A stretch of 64,000 nucleotides of DNA from Sphaerochaeta globosa str. Buddy (GTDB lineage: Bacteria; Spirochaetota; Spirochaetia; Sphaerochaetales; Sphaerochaetaceae), in assembly GCF_000190435.1 (NCBI RefSeq), contig NC_015152.1, positions 62,001-126,000 on the forward strand, read 5' to 3'. A program made the position numbers and the translations under genes. Shown one piece after another: positions 38,723-48,900 of the stretch (its first letter is position 1; the number at the start of each line of letters is the position of its first letter). Below the pieces are notes generated by a model. The model saw only the letters and a list, made by a program, of their open reading frames with translations. It did no database searches and was not told the origin of the DNA.

Positions 38723-41227
38723 TTAGATGAACAGATTGATTTTGCTCTCACTGGCAGCACCCATATAGGTTGCAACGCCACCGATTTCAACACCATCGAG
38801 CAACTCTTCTGCTTTTATTCCCATGATATCCATGGACATCTGACAGGCTACCATGCGAACCCCGCTCTTTCGGGCATCCTCATACATCTGCTGTACTTGG
38901 TCGACATGTTTTTTCTTCATGCGGCCTTTCATCATGTTCGCTCCCATTCCTCCCATATTCATGGAGGAGAGGGCGAGCTTGTCCATGCCCTTGGGCAGCA
39001 TGGCTCCAAACATGGTCCCCATAAAGTCCTTTTTGACCTTGGGCGCATGTTTCTTACGAAGTACAGACAGACCCCAGAACGTGAAGAACATCGTCACCGG
39101 TTTTCCTGATGCCGCAGCTCCGTTTGCCAAAACAAAGGAAGCCAGAGCCTTGTCCAGGTCATTGGAGAAGACAATCATGGTCGCACCGTTGTCAGCATTG
39201 CAAATGGCTGGCTTTTGTCCAGCAGAATCGGGCATGCTGCAGACGGTGGCATTTCCTTTCCCTACTACGGCTTCGATAATTCCATCGGTAGTCTTTACGC
39301 TTACCAATTCATTGCCGGTAAGCTTGCACCATGCTTGGACATCGACTCCAAAGCCTGGGTCGGAAGCCCTGATGACGATTCTATCGCCTTCCTCAAGGTT
39401 GTCGATTTCCCGCTTCAGGCGGATGATCGGACCCGGACATTGCAGACCACAGGCATCGACAGAGAGAATCTTGTTCTCCGTTCTCTTACGGAACGAACCA
39501 TCCTCATGTAGGTGGTTGATCGTTCCCGTGCTCTCCTTGACTGAAACCTTGTTTTTATTCTCAAGCAAAAAGCGCTCACGAACCGCACTGTCATAGGTCT
39601 TGAAACCACCGGTAAGGTTGCGTACTTTGGTGTAACCGTTTTGTCTGAGGATGCGCTCCGCGAGGTACCCCCTGAGGCCGATGGCGCAGTAGAGAATGAC
39701 CAGCCTATCGGTGGGAACCATTGCCAGCTTCTGTCTCAGTTCTGTGTGAGGAATATTGACCGAACCTTCGATTGTTCCCAGTTCGTACTCTTCCTCAGAG
39801 CGGACATCGAGCATGAAGGCACCATTGTTGCTCTCTTTCTGTGCTTCATCCCAACTGATCGTATCACTGAATCCCTCAAGGGTGTTGACGGCGATGAAGC
39901 CGACCATGTTTACCGGATCCTTGGCGCTGGAGAAAGGAGGTGCATATGCCTGCTCAAACTCAGCAAGGTCATAGACATTTCCTTCCTTACCGATGAAGGC
40001 ACTGATGACATCGACTCTCTTATCCACTCCATCGTATCCAACTGCCTGAGCTCCCCAGAGTTTGCCGCTTTGTGGGTGGTAGAGAATCTTTAGCGTGAGC
40101 TGACGGCTGTTGGGGTAGTAGCCGGCATGGTTGCCCGCATGGGTTACCGCTGTACGGTAGGGAAGGCCTGCTGCTTTGACTCCCTTTTCCGTTAGTCCGG
40201 TCGATGCGACCGTCATGTCAAAAATTTTTGCTATGCTGGTTGCAATAGTACCCCCATAGGGTCGTTTGTTTCCATCTATGATGGCATCGGCGCATAAGCG
40301 TGCCTGCTTATTGGCAGGACCCGCCAAGGGGACGGTAGAGGATAGTTTTGTCAGAGGGCTTGCGAATTCAATGGCATCGCCGACCGCTCTGATATTAGGA
40401 TCGTTGGTGGTGAAAAAAGGATCGACCTTGATTGCCCCATTCTTGACCAGCTCGATGCCGGAATCCTTCAAGAAGGCTGTATCGGGACGAACGCCGATGG
40501 AGAGGATGACGATATCGGCATCGATGAGTGTTCCCGAGGAAAGGCGGACGCTGACGATGCTGCCATGGTCCTCGAAGGAGGCAACCCCGTCCTTGAGGAA
40601 TAGGTTGACGCCTTTCGCCCTCAAGTGTTGCTGCACTTCGGCAGCCAGATCGTAGTCGATAATGTTCATCACCTGCTCGAGGGCTTCCACTACGCTGACT
40701 TCAAGACCCCGCTCTTTCAGATTCTCTGCCATCTCAAGGCCGATAAAGCCTCCTCCAACCACTACTGCACGTTTGGTGGCGGGGCTGTCAATTTTCTCTT
40801 TGATGTGGTCGATATCGGAAACCGAACGCAGCGAATAGATGCCCGGGTGTTCTATTCCTGGAATGGGAGGACGGACAGGACTGGCTCCGGGAGAGAGAAT
40901 GAGGGTGTCATAGCGCTCGTCGTACTCGGTGTTGTTTTTCAGATCCTTGACATGGATGGTTTTTGCCTTGCGGTTGATAAAGACCACCTCGCTCTGCACC
41001 CTTGCCTCAACGTTCAGTGATTCCATGAAACGCTCGGGGGTCATGACAAATAACCGGGAACGCTCGGTGATGACATTGCCTGCATAATAGGGGAGTCCGC
41101 AGTTTGCGTAGCTGATGTACTGTCCGCGTTCAAACATAATGATTTGGGCGTTCTCGTCCCTTCTTCTGAGTCTGGCGGCAGTTCCTGCTCCTCCTGCGAC
41201 TCCTCCAACAATGAGATATTTGGCCAT
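38723..41227 (-). CDS. CoA-disulfide reductase / rhodanese / TusA / DsrE multidomain protein
   Basis: An 834-residue cytoplasmic fusion. Residues 1-450 are an FAD/NAD(P)H disulfide reductase with two Rossmann motifs (GGVAGGAGTAARLRR; VVVGGGFIGLEMA) and the single redox cysteine C43 of CoA-disulfide and polysulfide reductases. Residues about 460-545 are a rhodanese domain with C514 (LYCAIGLRG). Residues about 585-655 are a TusA sulfur carrier with C597 in CGLQCPGP. Residues about 680-834 are a DsrE-like domain with C795 (MVACQMSMD). All four sulfur-handling cysteines are intact, so persulfide relay from reductase to carrier is plausible. The ATG at 41227 has AGGAGG upstream. It follows a marR gene by eight bases. 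Confidence 0.92.
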   Translation of the reverse strand: MAKYLIVGGVAGGAGTAARLRRRDENAQIIMFERGQYISYANCGLPYYAGNVITERSRLFVMTPERFMESLNVEARVQSEVVFINRKAKTIHVKDLKNNTEYDERYDTLILSPGASPVRPPIPGIEHPGIYSLRSVSDIDHIKEKIDSPATKRAVVVGGGFIGLEMAENLKERGLEVSVVEALEQVMNIIDYDLAAEVQQHLRAKGVNLFLKDGVASFEDHGSIVSVRLSSGTLIDADIVILSIGVRPDTAFLKDSGIELVKNGAIKVDPFFTTNDPNIRAVGDAIEFASPLTKLSSTVPLAGPANKQARLCADAIIDGNKRPYGGTIATSIAKIFDMTVASTGLTEKGVKAAGLPYRTAVTHAGNHAGYYPNSRQLTLKILYHPQSGKLWGAQAVGYDGVDKRVDVISAFIGKEGNVYDLAEFEQAYAPPFSSAKDPVNMVGFIAVNTLEGFSDTISWDEAQKESNNGAFMLDVRSEEEYELGTIEGSVNIPHTELRQKLAMVPTDRLVILYCAIGLRGYLAERILRQNGYTKVRNLTGGFKTYDSAVRERFLLENKNKVSVKESTGTINHLHEDGSFRKRTENKILSVDACGLQCPGPIIRLKREIDNLEEGDRIVIRASDPGFGVDVQAWCKLTGNELVSVKTTDGIIEAVVGKGNATVCSMPDSAGQKPAICNADNGATMIVFSNDLDKALASFVLANGAAASGKPVTMFFTFWGLSVLRKKHAPKVKKDFMGTMFGAMLPKGMDKLALSSMNMGGMGANMMKGRMKKKHVDQVQQMYEDARKSGVRMVACQMSMDIMGIKAEELLDGVEIGGVATYMGAASESKINLFI

Positions 41228-41235
41228 AGGTCCTC

Positions 41236-41589
41236 CTAAAGGGTGTTTTGGGTGAATAAGAGTTCTTCGGGAATAGGCAAATCGGAGCAACTGTAGGTTT
41301 TGACCATCTCCTTACCTGTTTCGGTCAAGGAGACGGTAAGACTCCGTCGGTCGGAGCTGCTGAGTGTCCGTTTGATCAGGGCCCTGGCTTCCAAGCTGTC
41401 CAGAATGCGGGTAAGGCGTGAGGGGGAGAGTTCAAGCTCCTTGGCAAGGGCGCTTGGCTCGACTATGCCCTTGTTCACAGCACATACAAGCAGTGCGTCG
41501 TTGAATGACATGCCGGTTTGTTCCTTGAGTTGTTCCTCGAAGTTGCGTAGCGAAGTCTGCAACTTACGGATGGCACATAAATCTATCAT
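41236..41589 (-). CDS. MarR-family regulator
   Basis: A 117-residue winged-helix regulator. The HTH is EPSALAKELELSPSRLTRIL, and the wing carries SSDRRSLTVSLTETG. The start at 41589 is chosen for its GGAG ribosome site; in-frame starts at 41601 and 41634 exist. Cysteines at residue 5 and near residue 101 could make it redox- or persulfide-responsive, which would suit its partner gene eight bases downstream, but that is inference. A strong promoter lies upstream. Confidence 0.85.
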   Translation of the reverse strand: MIDLCAIRKLQTSLRNFEEQLKEQTGMSFNDALLVCAVNKGIVEPSALAKELELSPSRLTRILDSLEARALIKRTLSSSDRRSLTVSLTETGKEMVKTYSCSDLPIPEELLFTQNTL

Positions 41590-41600
41590 ACAAATCTCCA

Positions 41601-41663
41601 TATAGTTCTTTACAGCAATAATTGCCAAGAACAACTATAGTGTCGGTTTTGTCATTTGGTCAA
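41601..41663 (-). promoter_or_regulatory. Promoter and inverted repeat of the marR operon
   Basis: Minus strand: TTGACC (41663-41658), 18-base spacer, TATAGT (41639-41634). A perfect 7-bp inverted repeat, TATAGTT/AACTATA, spans 41601-41607 and 41633-41639, overlapping the -10 box and the leader, and could serve as an operator or RNA hairpin. Confidence 0.6.
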
Positions 41664-41863
41664 TATGTAGATAAAAAAAGAGTGAATGATTTCGTGTGTC
41701 ATAGCTGAGAGTTAAAAATCTGGGTTATTGGAAAAACCTGTAAAATTTCCAAATTTTTCATAATTTGTTCTGACAGAGGTAATTCTTACTTTGTAAAAGT
41801 AATGATATAATGCTAAAAGAAATCGATAAAATTATATAAGATAATAGTATAAAAATTGCTCTA
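41664..41863. other. AT-rich intergenic segment
   Basis: No gene or RNA is recognised in these 200 bases between the marR promoter and the candidate RNA promoter. They are strongly AT-rich. Confidence 0.5.
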
Positions 41864-41893
41864 TTGACAATATCGGATAATCAAGCGTATCCT
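41864..41893 (+). promoter_or_regulatory. Promoter of the candidate structured RNA
   Basis: A consensus TTGACA (41864-41869), 18-base spacer, TATCCT (41888-41893). The predicted start point is about 41900. No protein-coding gene with a ribosome site follows before the hairpin at 42075. Confidence 0.65.
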
Positions 41894-41899
41894 ATGTCT

Positions 41900-42109
41900 A
41901 GGAAGGGATATGATGAAGAGGAAGACAGAAGTACCGTGATAGGGAAGTCTTCACTTCAGATTCCATTCAAGATTCTACTTGCTTGTTCTACTTCAAGATG
42001 GGTGTTCTCCTCTTAGTTTGTTGCAACATATACGGCATCCAGTGTTTCTACAACGTCTGCAACACATCTCCCTTAGGCCAGTGATAGTTCCCGATCACTG
42101 GCCTTCATT
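41900..42109 (+). ncRNA. Candidate structured non-coding RNA (about 210 nt)
   Basis: The stretch has a promoter at its 5' end and a long hairpin at its 3' end, and no credible reading frame. Base pairing suggests a three-way junction. The ends pair (AGGGA 41904-41908 with TCCCT 42069-42073; ATG 41910-41912 with CAT 42065-42067). Arm A pairs 41916-41926 with 42004-42014 (ten of eleven) and 41928-41933 with 41989-41994. Arm B pairs 42019-42025 with 42058-42064 (seven of seven). A GAAGT/ACTTC hairpin sits inside arm A. It does not match 6S, tmRNA, RNase P or SRP RNA layout as far as can be judged by eye. The downstream TRAP operon has its own promoter, so this looks like a separate transcript. 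Confidence 0.5.
42075..42109 (+). terminator. Terminator-like hairpin of the candidate RNA
   Basis: AGGCCAGTGAT, loop AGTTCCCG, ATCACTGGCCT: eleven perfect pairs, followed by TCATT. The T-run is poor, so termination may be partial. Confidence 0.65.
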
Positions 42110-42251
42110 CTGTATTGTACGCAGCAAACAACTCTTTCTCTCGACACGTCTTGACCGGGGTTGGCAGCGAAATGCGAATAAGTATGTTTCAATTCAATTT
42201 TGTAAAATACTCTAGTGAAACCACTTACCGAAGCACCATTTGTCTTTTTAT

Positions 42252-42292
42252 TTGACATACTAGAATACAAGTGATAATATATCGGATATATT
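42252..42292 (+). promoter_or_regulatory. Promoter and operator of the third TRAP operon
   Basis: TTGACA (42252-42257), 17-base spacer, TAATAT (42275-42280). The spacer contains TAGAATACAA, eight of ten matches to the TTGTATACAA GntR-type palindrome seen near the other TRAP operon. A perfect inverted repeat, AATATATC-G-GATATATT (42276-42292), overlaps the -10 box and start point. Confidence 0.65.
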
Positions 42293-42333
42293 TATATTCA
42301 TTCTGAGACTTAAACAGCGAAGTGAGGAACAAC

Positions 42334-42849
42334 ATGGCGAGCCTTGTCTATAGATGGGTGAACAAATTACGTACAACACTCATGATTTCGATTACAGCTT
42401 TCACCGTACTGCTGTGCCTCTTACAAGTTTTCTTACGGTATTTCACCTTCATTTCGATGAGGCCCTTTGCCTGGGGTGATGAGATTGTAAGGCTCTGTTC
42501 CATCTGGGTGATTTTCCTTGGGGTGTCGGTGGGTATCCGGGAAAATAGCCACTTTGCGGTGGACCTCTTCCTGAATAAAATACCCTCGGCTAAGATTCGC
42601 AGGCTTGCGGACCACTTGCTTGATGGCTTGGCCATTGCTGTTTTTGTCATTATCGCGTATCAGGGATTTCTCTATACCAGCACCAACGTAACCAGCCTGC
42701 TTCAGAACATACACATCTCGATGGCCTGGTTCTATGCGGCAATTCCCGTCGGATCATTATTATGCCTCTTCGAGTACGGATATCGCATGGTCTGGGGAAA
42801 GGCGTACAAACAGCGTGCTTTGAACACCAACAACAAGGAGCAGAACTAA
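42334..42849 (+). CDS. TRAP transporter small permease (DctQ family)
   Basis: A 171-residue membrane protein with four predicted helices. The segment RPFAWGDEIVRLCSIWVIFLG has the DctQ pattern of a conserved acidic residue before the second helix. ATG at 42334 follows GTGAGGA; a GTG four codons upstream overlaps that site and is less likely. It is the first gene of the third TRAP operon and is one base from the DctM start codon. Unusually, no dctP precedes it; the binding protein is the fifth gene. Confidence 0.9.
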   Translation: MASLVYRWVNKLRTTLMISITAFTVLLCLLQVFLRYFTFISMRPFAWGDEIVRLCSIWVIFLGVSVGIRENSHFAVDLFLNKIPSAKIRRLADHLLDGLAIAVFVIIAYQGFLYTSTNVTSLLQNIHISMAWFYAAIPVGSLLCLFEYGYRMVWGKAYKQRALNTNNKEQN

Positions 42850-42850
42850 T

Positions 42851-44131
42851 ATGTGGCAGGTATTTTGGGTATTCGCAGTATTGCTTGTTTTGATTTTCAC
42901 CGGCCTTCCTGTATATCTGTCTTTGTTGCTCACCAGTGTACTTTTCATGGTTGGAATGGACCTTCCCCTGAATCTGGTTGTCATCAAGATGTTTGGCGGA
43001 GTGAACTCCTTCTCGCTGATGGCCATTCCATTCTTTATCATTGCAGGAAACATTATGGCCAAGGCCGATATTACCGATAAGATCATCGACCTCTCCGACT
43101 CCTTGGTCGGTCAGTTCAAAGGTGGTCTGGGCCATGTAAATATTCTTGCCTCGATGTTTTTTGGGGGAATTCAGGGCTCAGGCATTGCCGATGCCTCGGC
43201 CATTGGGGGAATGCTCATTCCTGCAATGGAGAAGCAAGGCTATGACAAGGACTATGCAGTAGCAGTAACAGCAGGATCGTCCATGCTCAGCCCAATCATC
43301 CCTCCCAGTATCGCCATGATTCTCTATTCCTACTATACCGAGATTCCGGTGAGCCGGCTCTTTTTGGGGGGTGTTCTGCCCGGTGTCCTGATCGCCTTGC
43401 TTCAGATGGGAGTAAATCGTTATGTGTATGCAAAACGTAAGTACAATATTCCCACTAAGTCATTTTCTTTGAAAAAACTGATTCATTCCCTCTATGGTTC
43501 CATTGGTGCCTTGTTAATGCCCATCATCATCATTGTTGGAATTGTAACCGGTATTGTGACGGCAACCGAGGCTGGAGTCATCGCAATTGCTTATGGATTG
43601 CTGTATGGATTTGTGATTTCTAAGAAATTGAAGATCAAGGACATGCCTGAGATTCTGATCTCAAGCGGACATACCACAGCCATCGTTATGATTACCATCG
43701 CCGCTGCCGCAGCCCTTTCCAATGTTCTGGTGCGCATGCGCTTTCAGAACGAGGTCCTGAACTTTGTCGTCAATACCATTGGCAGTCCCATCTCAGGTAC
43801 CCTGTTTTTGATGGTGGTCATCTTTGTTTTGGGCATGTTCCTCGACCCCACGGTGCTTATCGCCATGCTTGCTCCTACCGTACTTGCCATCGGTAATGCC
43901 TTCGGTTTCGATGCCATTCACTACGGAGTGGTCATGGTTATCCTGATGCAGGTGGGAGCCATTACGCCGCCGGTTGGTTCGTTCCTGTTTGTCGCGTGTG
44001 GTGTGGCGAACCTGCCTATCGATAAAGCGGTGAAACCCCTTATTCCCTTCATTGCAACAGTATTGATCGTGGTGCTTCTGAGTTTCTTCATTCCACCCAT
44101 CGTCACGCTGCTTCCGAAGCTGATTGTGTAG
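42851..44131 (+). CDS. TRAP transporter large permease (DctM family)
   Basis: A 426-residue membrane protein. DctM landmarks: NLVVIKMFGGVNSFSLMAIP, GGIQGSGIADASAIGG, SPIIPPSIAMILYSY and MQVGAITPPVGSFL. It starts one base after dctQ and ends 13 bases before the first dehydrogenase gene. It forms the transport channel for the binding protein at 46435. Confidence 0.94.
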   Translation: MWQVFWVFAVLLVLIFTGLPVYLSLLLTSVLFMVGMDLPLNLVVIKMFGGVNSFSLMAIPFFIIAGNIMAKADITDKIIDLSDSLVGQFKGGLGHVNILASMFFGGIQGSGIADASAIGGMLIPAMEKQGYDKDYAVAVTAGSSMLSPIIPPSIAMILYSYYTEIPVSRLFLGGVLPGVLIALLQMGVNRYVYAKRKYNIPTKSFSLKKLIHSLYGSIGALLMPIIIIVGIVTGIVTATEAGVIAIAYGLLYGFVISKKLKIKDMPEILISSGHTTAIVMITIAAAAALSNVLVRMRFQNEVLNFVVNTIGSPISGTLFLMVVIFVLGMFLDPTVLIAMLAPTVLAIGNAFGFDAIHYGVVMVILMQVGAITPPVGSFLFVACGVANLPIDKAVKPLIPFIATVLIVVLLSFFIPPIVTLLPKLIV

Positions 44132-44144
44132 GAAGGAGGCTTAT

Positions 44145-45230
44145 ATGCAACGTAAGGATGGACAGATGTATGCTCCGGTAGGAAAATCCTGCTTGGTATG
44201 TAATCCTGGAGAGTTCACCATCGGAGTCATCGGGCTTGACCATGGCCATATCTATGGCATGTGCAATGCCCTGGTGGAGGCAGGGGCGACGGTCACCCAT
44301 GTATGGGACCCTGACCAGAATAGAATCGCCGCCTTCGTCAAAGCTTTCCCAACGGCGAAGGTGGTACGTTCCGATGCAGCCATCTACGATAATCCCTCAA
44401 TAGACTTGGTGGCAACAGCAGCCATACCTTCCGACCGAAGCAGCATCATCATCAAGGCTTTGATGGCGGGAAAGCATGCATTTTCCGATAAGCCGGCTAT
44501 GACGAGTCTCAGCCAGCTGGAGGCTGTTCGTTCTGCAGTGCAGCTCAGTGGAAAGCGCTTTGGCATCTATTTCAGTGAGCGTTTGCATGTAGAAGCTGCA
44601 AGCTTCGCCGATACCCTACTAGCAGATGGTTCGATTGGAAAAGTGGTGCAAACCATCGTTTTGGGCCCTCATCGACTGAGCAAGCCGACCCGTCCTACCT
44701 GGTTTTTCCAGAAAGAGAAGTTCGGCGGTATCCTTACCGATATTGGAAGCCATCAGATCGACCAAATTCTTCACTACGGTAATGCACAGCATGCCCAAGT
44801 TCTTGCCAGTAAGGTTGCCAACTACAATAATCCCGACTATCCCGAGTTTGAAGATTTCGGCGATGCATCTTTGCTCTGTGACAATGGAAGCTCCGGGTAT
44901 TTCCGAGTGGACTGGTTCACCCCCGACGGCCTGAGGGCCTGGGGCGATGGAAGAACGATTATTCTGGGAACCGAGGGGCATATAGAATTAAGAAAATATG
45001 TGGACCTTGCTCGGTCTGATACGCCCAACACCGTATATATGGCAAATGGCAAGGGAGAATTCAGTTTCGATGCCAACAACACCGTAGGGTTTCCCTTCTT
45101 CGGGCGTTTTATCCGTGACTGCCTCGATCATACTGAACTGGCTATTTCCCAAGAGTATACGCTGCATGTCATGGAACTGGCTCTTACAGCCCAGAAAATG
45201 GCTACAAGAATTTCAGAGGAGAGACAATGA
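44145..45230 (+). CDS. Gfo/Idh/MocA-family oxidoreductase (first of two)
   Basis: A 361-residue NAD(P)-dependent sugar dehydrogenase-like protein. The Rossmann motif is a variant (GVIGLDHGHIYGM), and the catalytic-loop EKP is replaced by DKP in AFSDKPAM. The C-terminal domain has GGILTDIGSHQIDQILHYG with the usual Asp/His pair. ATG at 44145 is chosen for its AGGAGG site. Its stop overlaps the start of the next dehydrogenase by four bases. Members oxidise, epimerise or deoxygenate sugars and inositols. The pair suggests a two-step oxidation and reduction of the TRAP substrate. Confidence 0.87.
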   Translation: MQRKDGQMYAPVGKSCLVCNPGEFTIGVIGLDHGHIYGMCNALVEAGATVTHVWDPDQNRIAAFVKAFPTAKVVRSDAAIYDNPSIDLVATAAIPSDRSSIIIKALMAGKHAFSDKPAMTSLSQLEAVRSAVQLSGKRFGIYFSERLHVEAASFADTLLADGSIGKVVQTIVLGPHRLSKPTRPTWFFQKEKFGGILTDIGSHQIDQILHYGNAQHAQVLASKVANYNNPDYPEFEDFGDASLLCDNGSSGYFRVDWFTPDGLRAWGDGRTIILGTEGHIELRKYVDLARSDTPNTVYMANGKGEFSFDANNTVGFPFFGRFIRDCLDHTELAISQEYTLHVMELALTAQKMATRISEERQ

Positions 45231-46381
45231 TTCGTATTGGAATAGTAGGAGCGGGAGCTATCGCCGCGGTACATATTGACAGTTTTTTACAGTTTGCATC
45301 GTTATGTGAAGTGGTTGCCGTCTGTGATACCTTTGTGGATAAAGCCCATTCCTTAATCACGGACAAGAAGGTCAATGCCCAGGCGTATGCCGATATCCAG
45401 ACTATGCTCGATGAGGGAAATCTGGATGCGATCAGCATCTGTCTGCCTCCGAATATGCACGCCACGGTTGCAATCCAAGCACTTTCGAGCGGCAAGCATG
45501 TCATTGTCGAAAAGCCGATGGCAAGCAGCCTCCAAGAGTGTGACCAGATGATTGCTGCTGCAAAAAAGCATAACAAGCTCCTGTGCGTAGTGAGTCAGAA
45601 TCGGTGGAAAACCCAGCTGAACAACACCAAGCGCATCATGGATGAAGGCCTTTTGGGCAAGGTGGTGCATGCCTCTTTCGATTCACTGTGGTGGCGGGGT
45701 TCCGTCTATTACGACCTGTGGTGGCGCGGAACGTGGGAGCAGGAAGCGGGCGGGGTTTTTACCAGTCATTCAGTCCACTACCTGGACTTGATGCAGATGC
45801 TCTTCGGCATGCCCAAGAAGGTGCAGGCGTTCATCAGCAACATCAATCATACCAACAGTGAGTGTGAGGACATCGGTTTTGCTGTGTTTACGTATGAGGA
45901 CAAGGTGATCAACTTCACCTCCTCATTGGTCTCACATGGGGAGAAGCAGGCTATTGTCATCAATGGAGAAAAGGCGAGTATAAGCATTCCTTTCAGTGTT
46001 TCTTCCTACAACAGTCTGCCCAATGGCTTTCCGGAGCAAAACAAGGAGCTTGAGAAGCAGATCCAGAAGCGGTATGAAGAGCTCCCTGCCCTGGAATTGG
46101 AAGGACATCCGGCCCAGCTTCTGAACTTCCTTCGGGCCATTGAGCAGAAAGAAGCACTTGCCCTTGACGGGAATGTGGGAAGGCAGACCATTGAGTTGAT
46201 CCATGCCATTTACAAGTCTGCCGTGCTCCAACGGCCGGTAGACCTTCCCCTAGAGAGCACAGACCCCTTCTATACCAAGGAAGGGTTGGTCCAGAAAATG
46301 CCCAGGTTCCATACCAAGGGCAAGAGCGTTGATAACTTTTCGACTTCCAAGATTACCTTGGGTCGGGATTTCAACGCATAA
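45227..46381 (+). CDS. Gfo/Idh/MocA-family oxidoreductase (second of two)
   Basis: A 384-residue protein with a canonical Rossmann motif (IGIVGAGAIAAVHI), the EKP motif intact (VIVEKPMAS), and GGVFTSHSVHYLDLMQML, where the first histidine position of the usual GG-x-x-x-D-x-G-x-H pattern reads T-S-H-S-V-H. It begins on the overlapping ATGA of its neighbour. A short hairpin (ACCCGAA/TTCGGGT, 46394-46410) separates it from the dctP gene. Likely substrate: an inositol or sugar acid carried by the adjacent transporter. Confidence 0.88.
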   Translation: MIRIGIVGAGAIAAVHIDSFLQFASLCEVVAVCDTFVDKAHSLITDKKVNAQAYADIQTMLDEGNLDAISICLPPNMHATVAIQALSSGKHVIVEKPMASSLQECDQMIAAAKKHNKLLCVVSQNRWKTQLNNTKRIMDEGLLGKVVHASFDSLWWRGSVYYDLWWRGTWEQEAGGVFTSHSVHYLDLMQMLFGMPKKVQAFISNINHTNSECEDIGFAVFTYEDKVINFTSSLVSHGEKQAIVINGEKASISIPFSVSSYNSLPNGFPEQNKELEKQIQKRYEELPALELEGHPAQLLNFLRAIEQKEALALDGNVGRQTIELIHAIYKSAVLQRPVDLPLESTDPFYTKEGLVQKMPRFHTKGKSVDNFSTSKITLGRDFNA

Positions 46382-46393
46382 AAATGTCACGTA

Positions 46394-46410
46394 ACCCGAA
46401 GTTTTCGGGT
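46394..46410 (+). other. Hairpin before dctP of the third TRAP operon
   Basis: ACCCGAA, loop GTT, TTCGGGT; no T-run follows. Possibly a processing or stabilising element at the 5' side of dctP. Confidence 0.5.
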
Positions 46411-46434
46411 AGAAAATACGTAGGAGGATTCGAT

Positions 46435-47430
46435 ATGAAGAAAAGCTTGATTTTGGTGCTCGCACTGGTGCTCCTAGCTAGCACAGCATTGTTCGCACAG
46501 GGAACCAAGGAGGGTGCAGCAGAGACGTACAAACTCCGAGCTTCCACCAACCTTGCAGGTACCGGTACGATTGGTCGTGGTTTGACGAAGTTTGTTGAAT
46601 TGGTCAACGAAAAGAGTGGTGGACGCATTGTAGCAACCGCCAACTATGGTTCTGAACTTGGCAACCAAGCCGAGCAGGTTGAAATGGCACGCACTGGATC
46701 GTTGGAGATGGTCGTTGCGGCTCCCGGTACCGGTCCCGGCACTTGGGTTCCCCAGCTGATGATGTTCGAGTTCCCGTACATCTTCAAGGATAACGATCAC
46801 TACCGCAGAGTTCTCAAGGGTCTGGAAGGTGAAGTGAGCAATCTGGTACAGCCGTATGGTTTCATCGCCCTCGCAGGCCAGAGCCAGGGTTCCAGGCATA
46901 TGCTGACCAAGAAGCCTGTCACCAAGCTTGAGGATCTTGCAAACATGAAGATGCGCGGTCCCAATGCAGTGTACATCAGCATGTTCAAGCACCTTGGTGC
47001 TGCCGGTACCACCATGGACTGGAACGAGATTTACACCGCTTTGCAGACTGGTGTCGTTGACGGTATGGAAGCATCCCCGAGCATGATCAACTCGATGAAG
47101 TTCCAGGATGTTGCAAAGAACCTGACCATCACCGACCACATCATCGCTTGCACGTATTACTTCTTCAACGAGAAGTGGTTCAATTCACTGCCCTCCGATC
47201 TGCAGACCATTGTTCGCCAGGCAGCAGATGAGGCCGCAGCCTACCAGGCAATCATCGACGACCAGGACCAGAAGGCTTCCTTGGAGAAAATGAGAGCCGA
47301 GGGTGTTGCCATCCATCAGCCGACCGACCGCGCCAAGTGGGTCGCAGCCTGCAGTCCGATGCTCGCAGAGTATCGTGCAAAGGGTGAAGGCTGGAACAAT
47401 TTCATCGATAAGATGCTTGCTATCCAATAA
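46435..47430 (+). CDS. TRAP transporter solute-binding protein (DctP family)
   Basis: A 331-residue periplasmic protein with a signal peptide ending near ALFAQG. DctP landmarks include MKMRGPNAVYISMFKHLGA with the carboxylate-binding arginine and ALQTGVVDGMEASP. The start at 46435 follows TAGGAGG; earlier in-frame residues overlap the hairpin. It is the fifth gene of the operon, behind its permease and two dehydrogenases. It is followed by a ten-pair hairpin with a GAAA tetraloop. Confidence 0.93.
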   Translation: MKKSLILVLALVLLASTALFAQGTKEGAAETYKLRASTNLAGTGTIGRGLTKFVELVNEKSGGRIVATANYGSELGNQAEQVEMARTGSLEMVVAAPGTGPGTWVPQLMMFEFPYIFKDNDHYRRVLKGLEGEVSNLVQPYGFIALAGQSQGSRHMLTKKPVTKLEDLANMKMRGPNAVYISMFKHLGAAGTTMDWNEIYTALQTGVVDGMEASPSMINSMKFQDVAKNLTITDHIIACTYYFFNEKWFNSLPSDLQTIVRQAADEAAAYQAIIDDQDQKASLEKMRAEGVAIHQPTDRAKWVAACSPMLAEYRAKGEGWNNFIDKMLAIQ

Positions 47431-47445
47431 CCTATGTGAAGTTTC

Positions 47446-47469
47446 GAGGGTGTCCGAAAGGGCACCCTC
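47446..47469 (+). other. Hairpin after dctP (third TRAP operon)
   Basis: GAGGGTGTCC, tetraloop GAAA, GGGCACCCTC (one G-T pair). There is no T-run; the gntR start lies 16 bases downstream. Likely a 3' mRNA stabiliser or weak terminator. Confidence 0.7.
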
Positions 47470-47485
47470 ATGCTAGGTAGATGTC

Positions 47486-48163
47486 ATGATTGTTGAAGTG
47501 AAACGACCGAAGGAAACAGCCTCTGAATATGCCTTGCGGGTATTGAAGGAGAATATCATTTCTCTGGACCTCGCTCCCGGGAGCATGGTCAGCGAGAATG
47601 AGATCGCCGCCCAGCTGGGTATTTCGCGCACCCCTGTGCGGGAAGCCCTGATCGAACTGAGCCGCGTGGGTATCGTTGAGATCCTGCCGCAGAAGGGTAG
47701 CCGCATCAACTGTATCGACTACGGCATGGTAGAAGAGTCCCGTTTTTTGCGTTTGGTTCTTGAGCGTGAAGTGGTCAAACTTATTTGTAGCAGTGAAAAG
47801 AAGCTCGACTTGTCCTCTCTACAGGAGAACCTAAGGCTGCAGAGTTTTTATGTGGAACATTCGAAGCCCGAGAAATTACTCGAACTGGACAATCAGTTTC
47901 ATGCCTTGCTGTTTTTACTGGCTGACAAGGTACAGTGCTACGGGTGGATGATGGAAGGCCTTACCGTCCATTTCGACCGGGTGCGCAGCATGAGCCTGAG
48001 TGCAGTAAAGGACATCAAGATTGTGAGCGACCACCAGGCGATTGTCCAAGCATTGGCCGACCGGAATACGAGTGTGGCAGAGCAACTGATGGAGAAACAT
48101 CTTTCCCGGTATAAGATCGACGAACAGGCAATTCGAGAAACGTATCCAACCTACTTTTGCTAA
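47486..48163 (+). CDS. GntR-family regulator, FCD subfamily
   Basis: A 225-residue regulator: winged helix MVSENEIAAQLGISRTPVREAL, wing PQKGSRIN, then a helical FCD domain (LLELDNQFHALLFLLADK). Position after dctP suggests control of the third TRAP operon, probably through the elements at 42252-42292. The sequence before the ATG (TAGGTAGATGTC) could be a weak ribosome site or a -10 box six bases upstream. Confidence 0.88.
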   Translation: MIVEVKRPKETASEYALRVLKENIISLDLAPGSMVSENEIAAQLGISRTPVREALIELSRVGIVEILPQKGSRINCIDYGMVEESRFLRLVLEREVVKLICSSEKKLDLSSLQENLRLQSFYVEHSKPEKLLELDNQFHALLFLLADKVQCYGWMMEGLTVHFDRVRSMSLSAVKDIKIVSDHQAIVQALADRNTSVAEQLMEKHLSRYKIDEQAIRETYPTYFC

Positions 48164-48183
48164 GAGCCATCTCTTGGTACACT
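48155..48183 (+). promoter_or_regulatory. Candidate leaderless promoter of the SGNH-hydrolase gene
   Basis: TTTTGC (48155-48160), 17-base spacer, TACACT (48178-48183), six bases, ATG at 48190. It overlaps the end of the gntR gene. Confidence 0.42.
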
Positions 48184-48189
48184 GCTTGC

Positions 48190-48900
48190 ATGCACACAAT
48201 TCTTTGTTATGGTGATTCCAACACTTTCGGTACCAACCCCAGCGGGGGAAGGTGGGAAGCCGATGTCCGCTGGACTGGCCTTCTTTCTACGATGCTTGGT
48301 CCCTCGTACCGCATCATCGAGGAAGGTCTTGGGGGAAGAACCACGGTGTTTGACGACCCCCTGGAACCCAAGCGCAATGGTTTGGAGTACCTTCCAGTCT
48401 CCTTGCAGAGTCATCGTCCGCTTGACTTGGTCATTCTCAGCCTGGGCACCAACGACTGCAAATTCCTCTTCTCCGCCAATGAACGGGTAATCGCCAAGGG
48501 GCTGGAGAAGTTGATCACCACGGTAAAAAATCATCCCTATGGAAACGGGTATCCCGTTCCCCAAGTCCTGGTCATTTCCCCGATTCATATCGGAGATGAT
48601 ATTGAGACTTCAATTTTCGCTTCCTACGACGCACGCTCAGCAGTATTGAGCAAACGTCTTAGCGCCCCCATCAAGGCAATGGCAGAAGAGCAGCATGTAC
48701 TTTTCTTCGATGCAGCCGAAGTGGCAGCGAGCAGTCCGATCGACCAACTGCATATGGATAAGGATGGCCATGCCTCTCTTGCCCAAGCATTGTATCCTCT
48801 GATCCTCTCGGTGTTCGGTGATTCAGAGAAACCAAAACCTCCTTCTGAAAGTGTGAAGGAGGCTTCTCATGCAAGACTTTTTGGCTTTCTCAAGCGCTAA
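48190..48900 (+). CDS. SGNH/GDSL-family hydrolase
   Basis: A 236-residue esterase-like protein. The catalytic serine lies in LCYGDSNTFG near the N-terminus, the oxyanion asparagine in SLGTNDCK, and the Asp-His pair in MDKDGHASLAQ, so the active site appears complete. There is no signal peptide, so it is cytoplasmic. Related proteins deacetylate sugars or act on aryl esters. ATG at 48190 lacks a ribosome site and has TACACT six bases upstream. It overlaps the stop of the convergent EEP-family gene by four bases. Confidence 0.82.
   Translation: MHTILCYGDSNTFGTNPSGGRWEADVRWTGLLSTMLGPSYRIIEEGLGGRTTVFDDPLEPKRNGLEYLPVSLQSHRPLDLVILSLGTNDCKFLFSANERVIAKGLEKLITTVKNHPYGNGYPVPQVLVISPIHIGDDIETSIFASYDARSAVLSKRLSAPIKAMAEEQHVLFFDAAEVAASSPIDQLHMDKDGHASLAQALYPLILSVFGDSEKPKPPSESVKEASHARLFGFLKR

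Follow-up and report, generated by a model that had tools for sequence, protein, structure and literature searches.

A predicted structured RNA gene with its own promoter and terminator beside marR in Sphaerochaeta

The locus and its transcription signals

The analysed window is a stretch of 64,000 nucleotides from Sphaerochaeta globosa str. Buddy. Its reverse strand carries an operon that starts with a gene for a MarR-family regulator (41239-41601) and has as its second gene a CoA-disulfide reductase-like/rhodanese/TusA/DsrE fusion (38726-41227). Back to back with this operon, on the forward strand, lies a putative RNA gene (41900-42107, about 208 nt). On the marR side, the conserved palindrome AGCAATAATTGCC (41614-41626), just downstream of the likely marR transcription start, is likely a candidate MarR operator. 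The sequence GTCAATATGTAGATAAAAAAAGAG (41660-41683), which stands beside the marR -35 hexamer, is almost invariant across the genus, even in genomes without the RNA, and probably serves in the control of the marR promoter.

The RNA gene is preceded, on the same strand, by a -35 hexamer, TTGACA (41864-41869), and a -10 hexamer, TATCCT (41888-41893), with a spacer of 18 bp. This consensus promoter, which a first-pass annotation had read from the letters of the window, is present at the position given there and is kept in relatives together with an upstream box. Promoter-like sites alone were not beyond chance (6 observed vs 3.6 +/- 2.2 in shuffles). The box is the conserved AT-rich sequence GATAAAATTATATAAGATAATAGTATAA (41825-41852, forward strand), and all relatives keep the promoter along with the box, which lies at a set distance of 25-27 bp upstream of their -35 hexamer. 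A pattern composed of the box, the spacing and the -35 hexamer occurred exactly once per genome in 18/18 RNA-bearing genomes, while elsewhere it matched once, spuriously, within the genus (G105) and five times beyond it, and a reversed control gave one match. There was no similar RNA downstream of the matches in G105 and outside the genus, and the match in a Lachnospiraceae record (L067) reads as coding DNA. The box would fit an activator site or an UP element; as it was found only at the RNA promoter, it gives no lead to a known regulon. Still further upstream, the element GTTCTGACA (41767-41775, forward strand) is conserved in most relatives. No copy of the candidate MarR operator was recognised at the RNA promoter, and thus the control of the RNA by MarR is only a guess from position.

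At the other end, the gene runs into an intrinsic terminator (42076-42111, forward strand), the hairpin of which (42076-42103) is formed by GGCCAGTGAT/ATCACTGGCC. The terminator-like hairpin of the first-pass annotation, given there as 11 bp, is present, with a stem of 10 bp that covaries and an invariant loop. The stem was 100% paired in every variant and contained 4 doubly changed pairs, and its UCCC loop (42089-42092) was invariant across 9 distinct variants. The U tail is weak in the window and good in relatives. As read from these signals, the transcript is limited by the promoter at one end and by the intrinsic terminator at the other. Its 5' end would lie 7 nt past the -10 box, at the invariant AGGAAGGGA, and its 3' end within the terminator tail.

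Relatives and the comparative fold

Searching 139 family genomes at the DNA level gave two homologues of full length, 83% identical, and a number of fragments from the same genus, with the same promoter, 5' end and terminator in their surroundings. With a covariance model trained on seven homologues, the RNA was found in 15 of the 26 genus genomes (E <= 1e-28), and seven genomes outside the training set were matched at E 1e-36 to 1e-32. Three further, more divergent copies, obtained via blastn, promoter or synteny, brought the number of RNA-bearing genomes to 18. The copy in G111 (L008) is diverged and scores weakly with the model, and it has the promoter and terminator. Two other diverged versions, L056 (G098) and L062 (G104), were found divergently upstream of marR; they share with the others the promoter box, a GGGAA in the 5' half and a terminator loop of UUCCC, and differ in the rest of the sequence. 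Since a model built from these two (R2) did not find the other homologues, their kinship rests on synteny, the promoter box, GGGAA and the UUCCC loop. No copy was found in 8/26 genus genomes (some of them incomplete), and the genus can thus do without the RNA. Of 296 genomes sampled from 139 genera across the phylum, none but the own genome gave a match. Weak model matches L036, L037 and L040, when read, had no promoter or terminator, L038 and L039 matched at E 0.003-0.005, and among the weak family matches read none outside the genus held up. As far as tested, the RNA family appears to be restricted to one genus.

The marR gene is the divergent neighbour of the RNA in 17/18 genomes, namely those of all 15 strong homologues and those of L056 and L062; G111 is the exception. 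Beyond marR, the CoA-disulfide reductase gene is found in nearly all strong homologues.

Folded by itself, the sequence reaches -63.2 kcal/mol (z = -1.8), which proves little, because 9/200 shuffles were equally stable. As the features of the single sequence are not clearly beyond chance, the case for the RNA rests on its relatives. On a model-fitted alignment of 13 sequences, which leans to structure, 91% of cells were paired vs 46-56% when partners were slid. Compensatory base changes among Sphaerochaeta relatives, named in the first-pass annotation as the check on its proposal, were found: there were 13 doubly changed pairs vs 7.4 +/- 1.4 in shuffles, and 0/500 shuffles reached 13. Because the fitted alignment leans to structure, a plain MAFFT alignment was folded with RNAalifold with no structure supplied. 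This fold contained P1, P2a, P3 and the terminator as well as P2b in its outer part; doubly changed pairs fell in P2a, P2b and the terminator. The sequence-only alignment did not yield P2c; it appears on the fitted one, with its pairing kept in 94% of cells.

The predicted fold, all on the forward strand, is made of a closing stem, an arm that splits in two, a further arm and the terminator. The closing stem P1 (41903-42074) pairs 41903-41908 with 42069-42074 and is extended by 41911-41912 with 42065-42066. The arm P2a (41916-42014), the best covarying stem, pairs 41916-41922 with 42008-42014 and 41924-41927 with 42003-42006, and it splits into P2b and P2c. The hairpin P2b (41928-41957; 41928-41932 with 41953-41957, inner 41938-41940 with 41947-41949) exposes an invariant GGGA in its loop (41942-41945), and the stem P2c (41962-42002; 41962-41967 with 41997-42002) encloses a loop with two UUCUAC motifs (41973-41978 and 41986-41991). 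The arm P3 (42020-42063; 42020-42025 with 42058-42063) varies in its interior, where a third UUCUAC motif (42046-42051) lies. The three-way junction drawn in the first-pass annotation is right in outline and agrees with the comparison of relatives, as do its paired ends (41904-41912 with 42065-42073) and its second arm (42019-42025 with 42058-42064). The long arm (41916-41933 with 41989-42014) survived in its outer part, the covarying P2a. Its interior was redrawn as P2b and P2c, because the pairing of these is kept in 97% and 94% of cells, respectively, vs only 59% for the inner GAAGUA/UACUUC pairing preferred by the single-sequence fold.

No family of Rfam 15 matched the RNA at the gathering score or at a relaxed E-value, the best relaxed match reaching 17.6 bits vs a cut-off of 54. 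The covariance-model search that the first-pass annotation had suggested thus agrees with its judgement by eye that no standard RNA was present. Neither Rfam 15 nor a limited text search of open papers gave a matching catalogued or published RNA. On the points compared here, the undescribed structured RNA proposed at 41864-42109 is borne out: its paired positions are kept and covary, Rfam 15 is without a match and no peptide is conserved. Taken together, these results indicate that the locus is very likely a free-standing gene for a structured RNA, with a promoter of its own and an intrinsic terminator.

Proposed mode of action and its alternatives

The RNA is probably a regulatory one, because its fold is kept across the genus and a stress-type regulator gene lies back to back with it almost constantly. 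Judged from sequence, it has the independent promoter and intrinsic terminator, and the conserved secondary structure without a conserved reading frame, that characterize trans-acting small regulatory RNAs in general. With moderate confidence, we favour an RNA that acts in trans by base pairing with mRNAs, without Hfq. Candidate contact sites are the UUCUAC motifs in the P2c and P3 loops and, suited to G-rich ribosome-binding sites, the invariant UCCC of the terminator loop. In 16 homologues, which are related, so that the counts are descriptive and carry no probability, CUAC occurred 51 times vs 9.5 +/- 2.9 in shuffles, TCTAC 25 times vs 2.9, and TCCC 39 times vs 16. When the 51 window genes were screened for duplexes with the RNA, none came out as a target above chance. 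As the genus is without recognisable Hfq or CsrA, one Hfq genome excepted, pairing would have to begin at stable loops, in the manner of Staphylococcus RNAIII and the Rsa RNAs. CsrA was absent in 26/26 genus genomes, with control genomes positive, and Hfq in 25/26, the own genome included; an Hfq-dependent small RNA does not fit a genome from which Hfq is missing. The sole Hfq match, L072 (G112:C20:2187-2375), is in a genome in which the RNA was not found, and may represent contamination or a late gain. Transcription would respond to the redox/thiol stress handled by the MarR regulator and the CoA-disulfide reductase, a link modelled on OxyS beside oxyR and SgrS beside sgrR.

The most speculative step concerns the P2b GGGA loop, which is complementary to the terminator UCCC; a kissing contact between the two is possible and may persist until a target competes for it. 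As both loops are nearly invariant, such a pair cannot be tested by covariation, and at its fifth position only some homologues have matching bases. That the RNA would form a new class, with a GGGA/UCCC loop-loop switch and UUCUAC contacts, independent of Hfq and CsrA and controlled by the divergent redox-sensing MarR, we regard as unlikely.

A doubtful reading, though the one that survives best beside pairing with mRNAs, is that the RNA binds a protein or another partner, the UUCUAC and GGGA loops being protein sites through which it titrates or scaffolds. The extensive conserved fold and the repeated loop motifs would suit this, as would the 5' sequence AGGAAGGGAYATGA, which is strictly conserved beyond the needs of P1 pairing. 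However, CsrA, the classical partner of GGA loops, is absent from every genus genome, and no other candidate protein partner was identified. A CsrB/RsmZ-type antagonist of CsrA was rejected for the same absence.

Quite unlikely is a dual-function or mRNA-like transcript, in which the 5' AGGAAGGG followed by AUG would serve as a ribosome-binding site for the synthesis of a short peptide. In 13/14 homologues, the purine-rich 5' end is followed by an AUG at position 10 or 11, and the frame usually starts with M-(M/I)-(K/R)-R-. Nevertheless, the open frame varies from 7 to 34 codons, with neither end nor sequence in common, and indels shift it from one close relative to another, L035 has GTG at the place of the start codon and, from the first ATG in that region, a frame of only one codon, and the two most divergent relatives, L056 and L062, are without a 5' AUG frame. 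Moreover, the purine-rich codons are accounted for by stem P2a. No conserved peptide was found across homologues, in keeping with the earlier judgement that there is no credible reading frame, and a peptide as the main function was rejected, as the frames agree neither in length nor in sequence and are interrupted by indels.

The RNA precedes a same-strand TRAP operon in the window, as would a cis-acting leader or riboswitch of that operon, but this reading is very improbable. What lies downstream differs between species while the RNA and its terminator are always present: TRAP DctQM, a solute-binding protein, GntR, an SGNH hydrolase, or no gene close by. The RNA is therefore not the leader of the TRAP operon, which has its own promoter-like site at 42252, as the first-pass annotation had argued from that site. 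There is next to no chance that the RNA is a diverged form of a housekeeping RNA, for instance of 6S RNA (RF00013), which it resembles in its length of about 200 nt, stand-alone gene and strong promoter of its own, but from which it differs in its locus and in its branched fold, vs a long rod with a central bubble, with no Rfam match (RF00013 included) at the RNA locus and a separate 6S match in the own genome and in most genus members.

The 6S RNA candidate of the own genome, which lies outside the window (G000:C1:2063545-2063733), scored 41.5 bits vs the Rfam cut-off of 46.4. All 6S matches listed for the genus were under the cut-off and would escape standard annotation.

The spot just behind the RNA, as the sequences suggest, is one at which operons are exchanged. 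G100 (L099) and G099 (L100) are 98-99% identical, yet their content just behind the RNA is different. In G100, a GntR-TRAP-catabolic operon of 5.3 kb separates the RNA from an SGNH-hydrolase gene. On both sides of this operon stands a perfect 41-bp direct repeat taken from the RNA 3' end, and no integrase is visible. In the window, the corresponding region (42104-48190) has a TRAP operon between the RNA and the hydrolase orthologue, which is at 48190. In G108 (L102/L009), the sequence CAATATCCAACCTACTTT, just past the RNA terminator, is similar to the closing part of the final operon gene ahead of the hydrolase in the window (about 48130), which would fit an operon once present here and since deleted.

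Comparison with known systems

If confirmed, the trans-acting RNA proposed here would represent a structured RNA family with strong comparative support in a spirochaete genus without CsrA, with Hfq in one genome, a setting in which the finding of targets by small RNAs is poorly known. The link with MarR and the CoA-disulfide reductase would tie it to redox/thiol stress, and is open to direct test in culturable Sphaerochaeta.

Small RNAs encoded beside, and divergently from, their regulators are a common arrangement (PMC4423775). Like the enterobacterial OxyS, SgrS and GcvB, the Sphaerochaeta RNA is a free-standing gene divergent from a transcription regulator gene (PMC4423775). Contrary to these, which depend on Hfq, it comes from a genome without Hfq; it has no sequence or Rfam relation to them, and its neighbour regulator is of the MarR type, the control of the RNA by which is putative. 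In CsrB/RsmZ-type RNAs, GGA is likewise presented in a conserved hairpin loop, but the Sphaerochaeta RNA has one such loop and its genus is without CsrA. The UCCC loops of several S. aureus RNAs are their contact sites (PMC3861533), and RNAIII and the Rsa RNAs are, like the RNA described here, structured, with UCCC in hairpin loops (PMC3861533). There is no sequence relation between them; in Sphaerochaeta, UCCC is in the terminator loop and the UUCUAC motif is repeated in addition. The RNA appears to represent a new small RNA family of a known general type, confined to one genus as far as tested.
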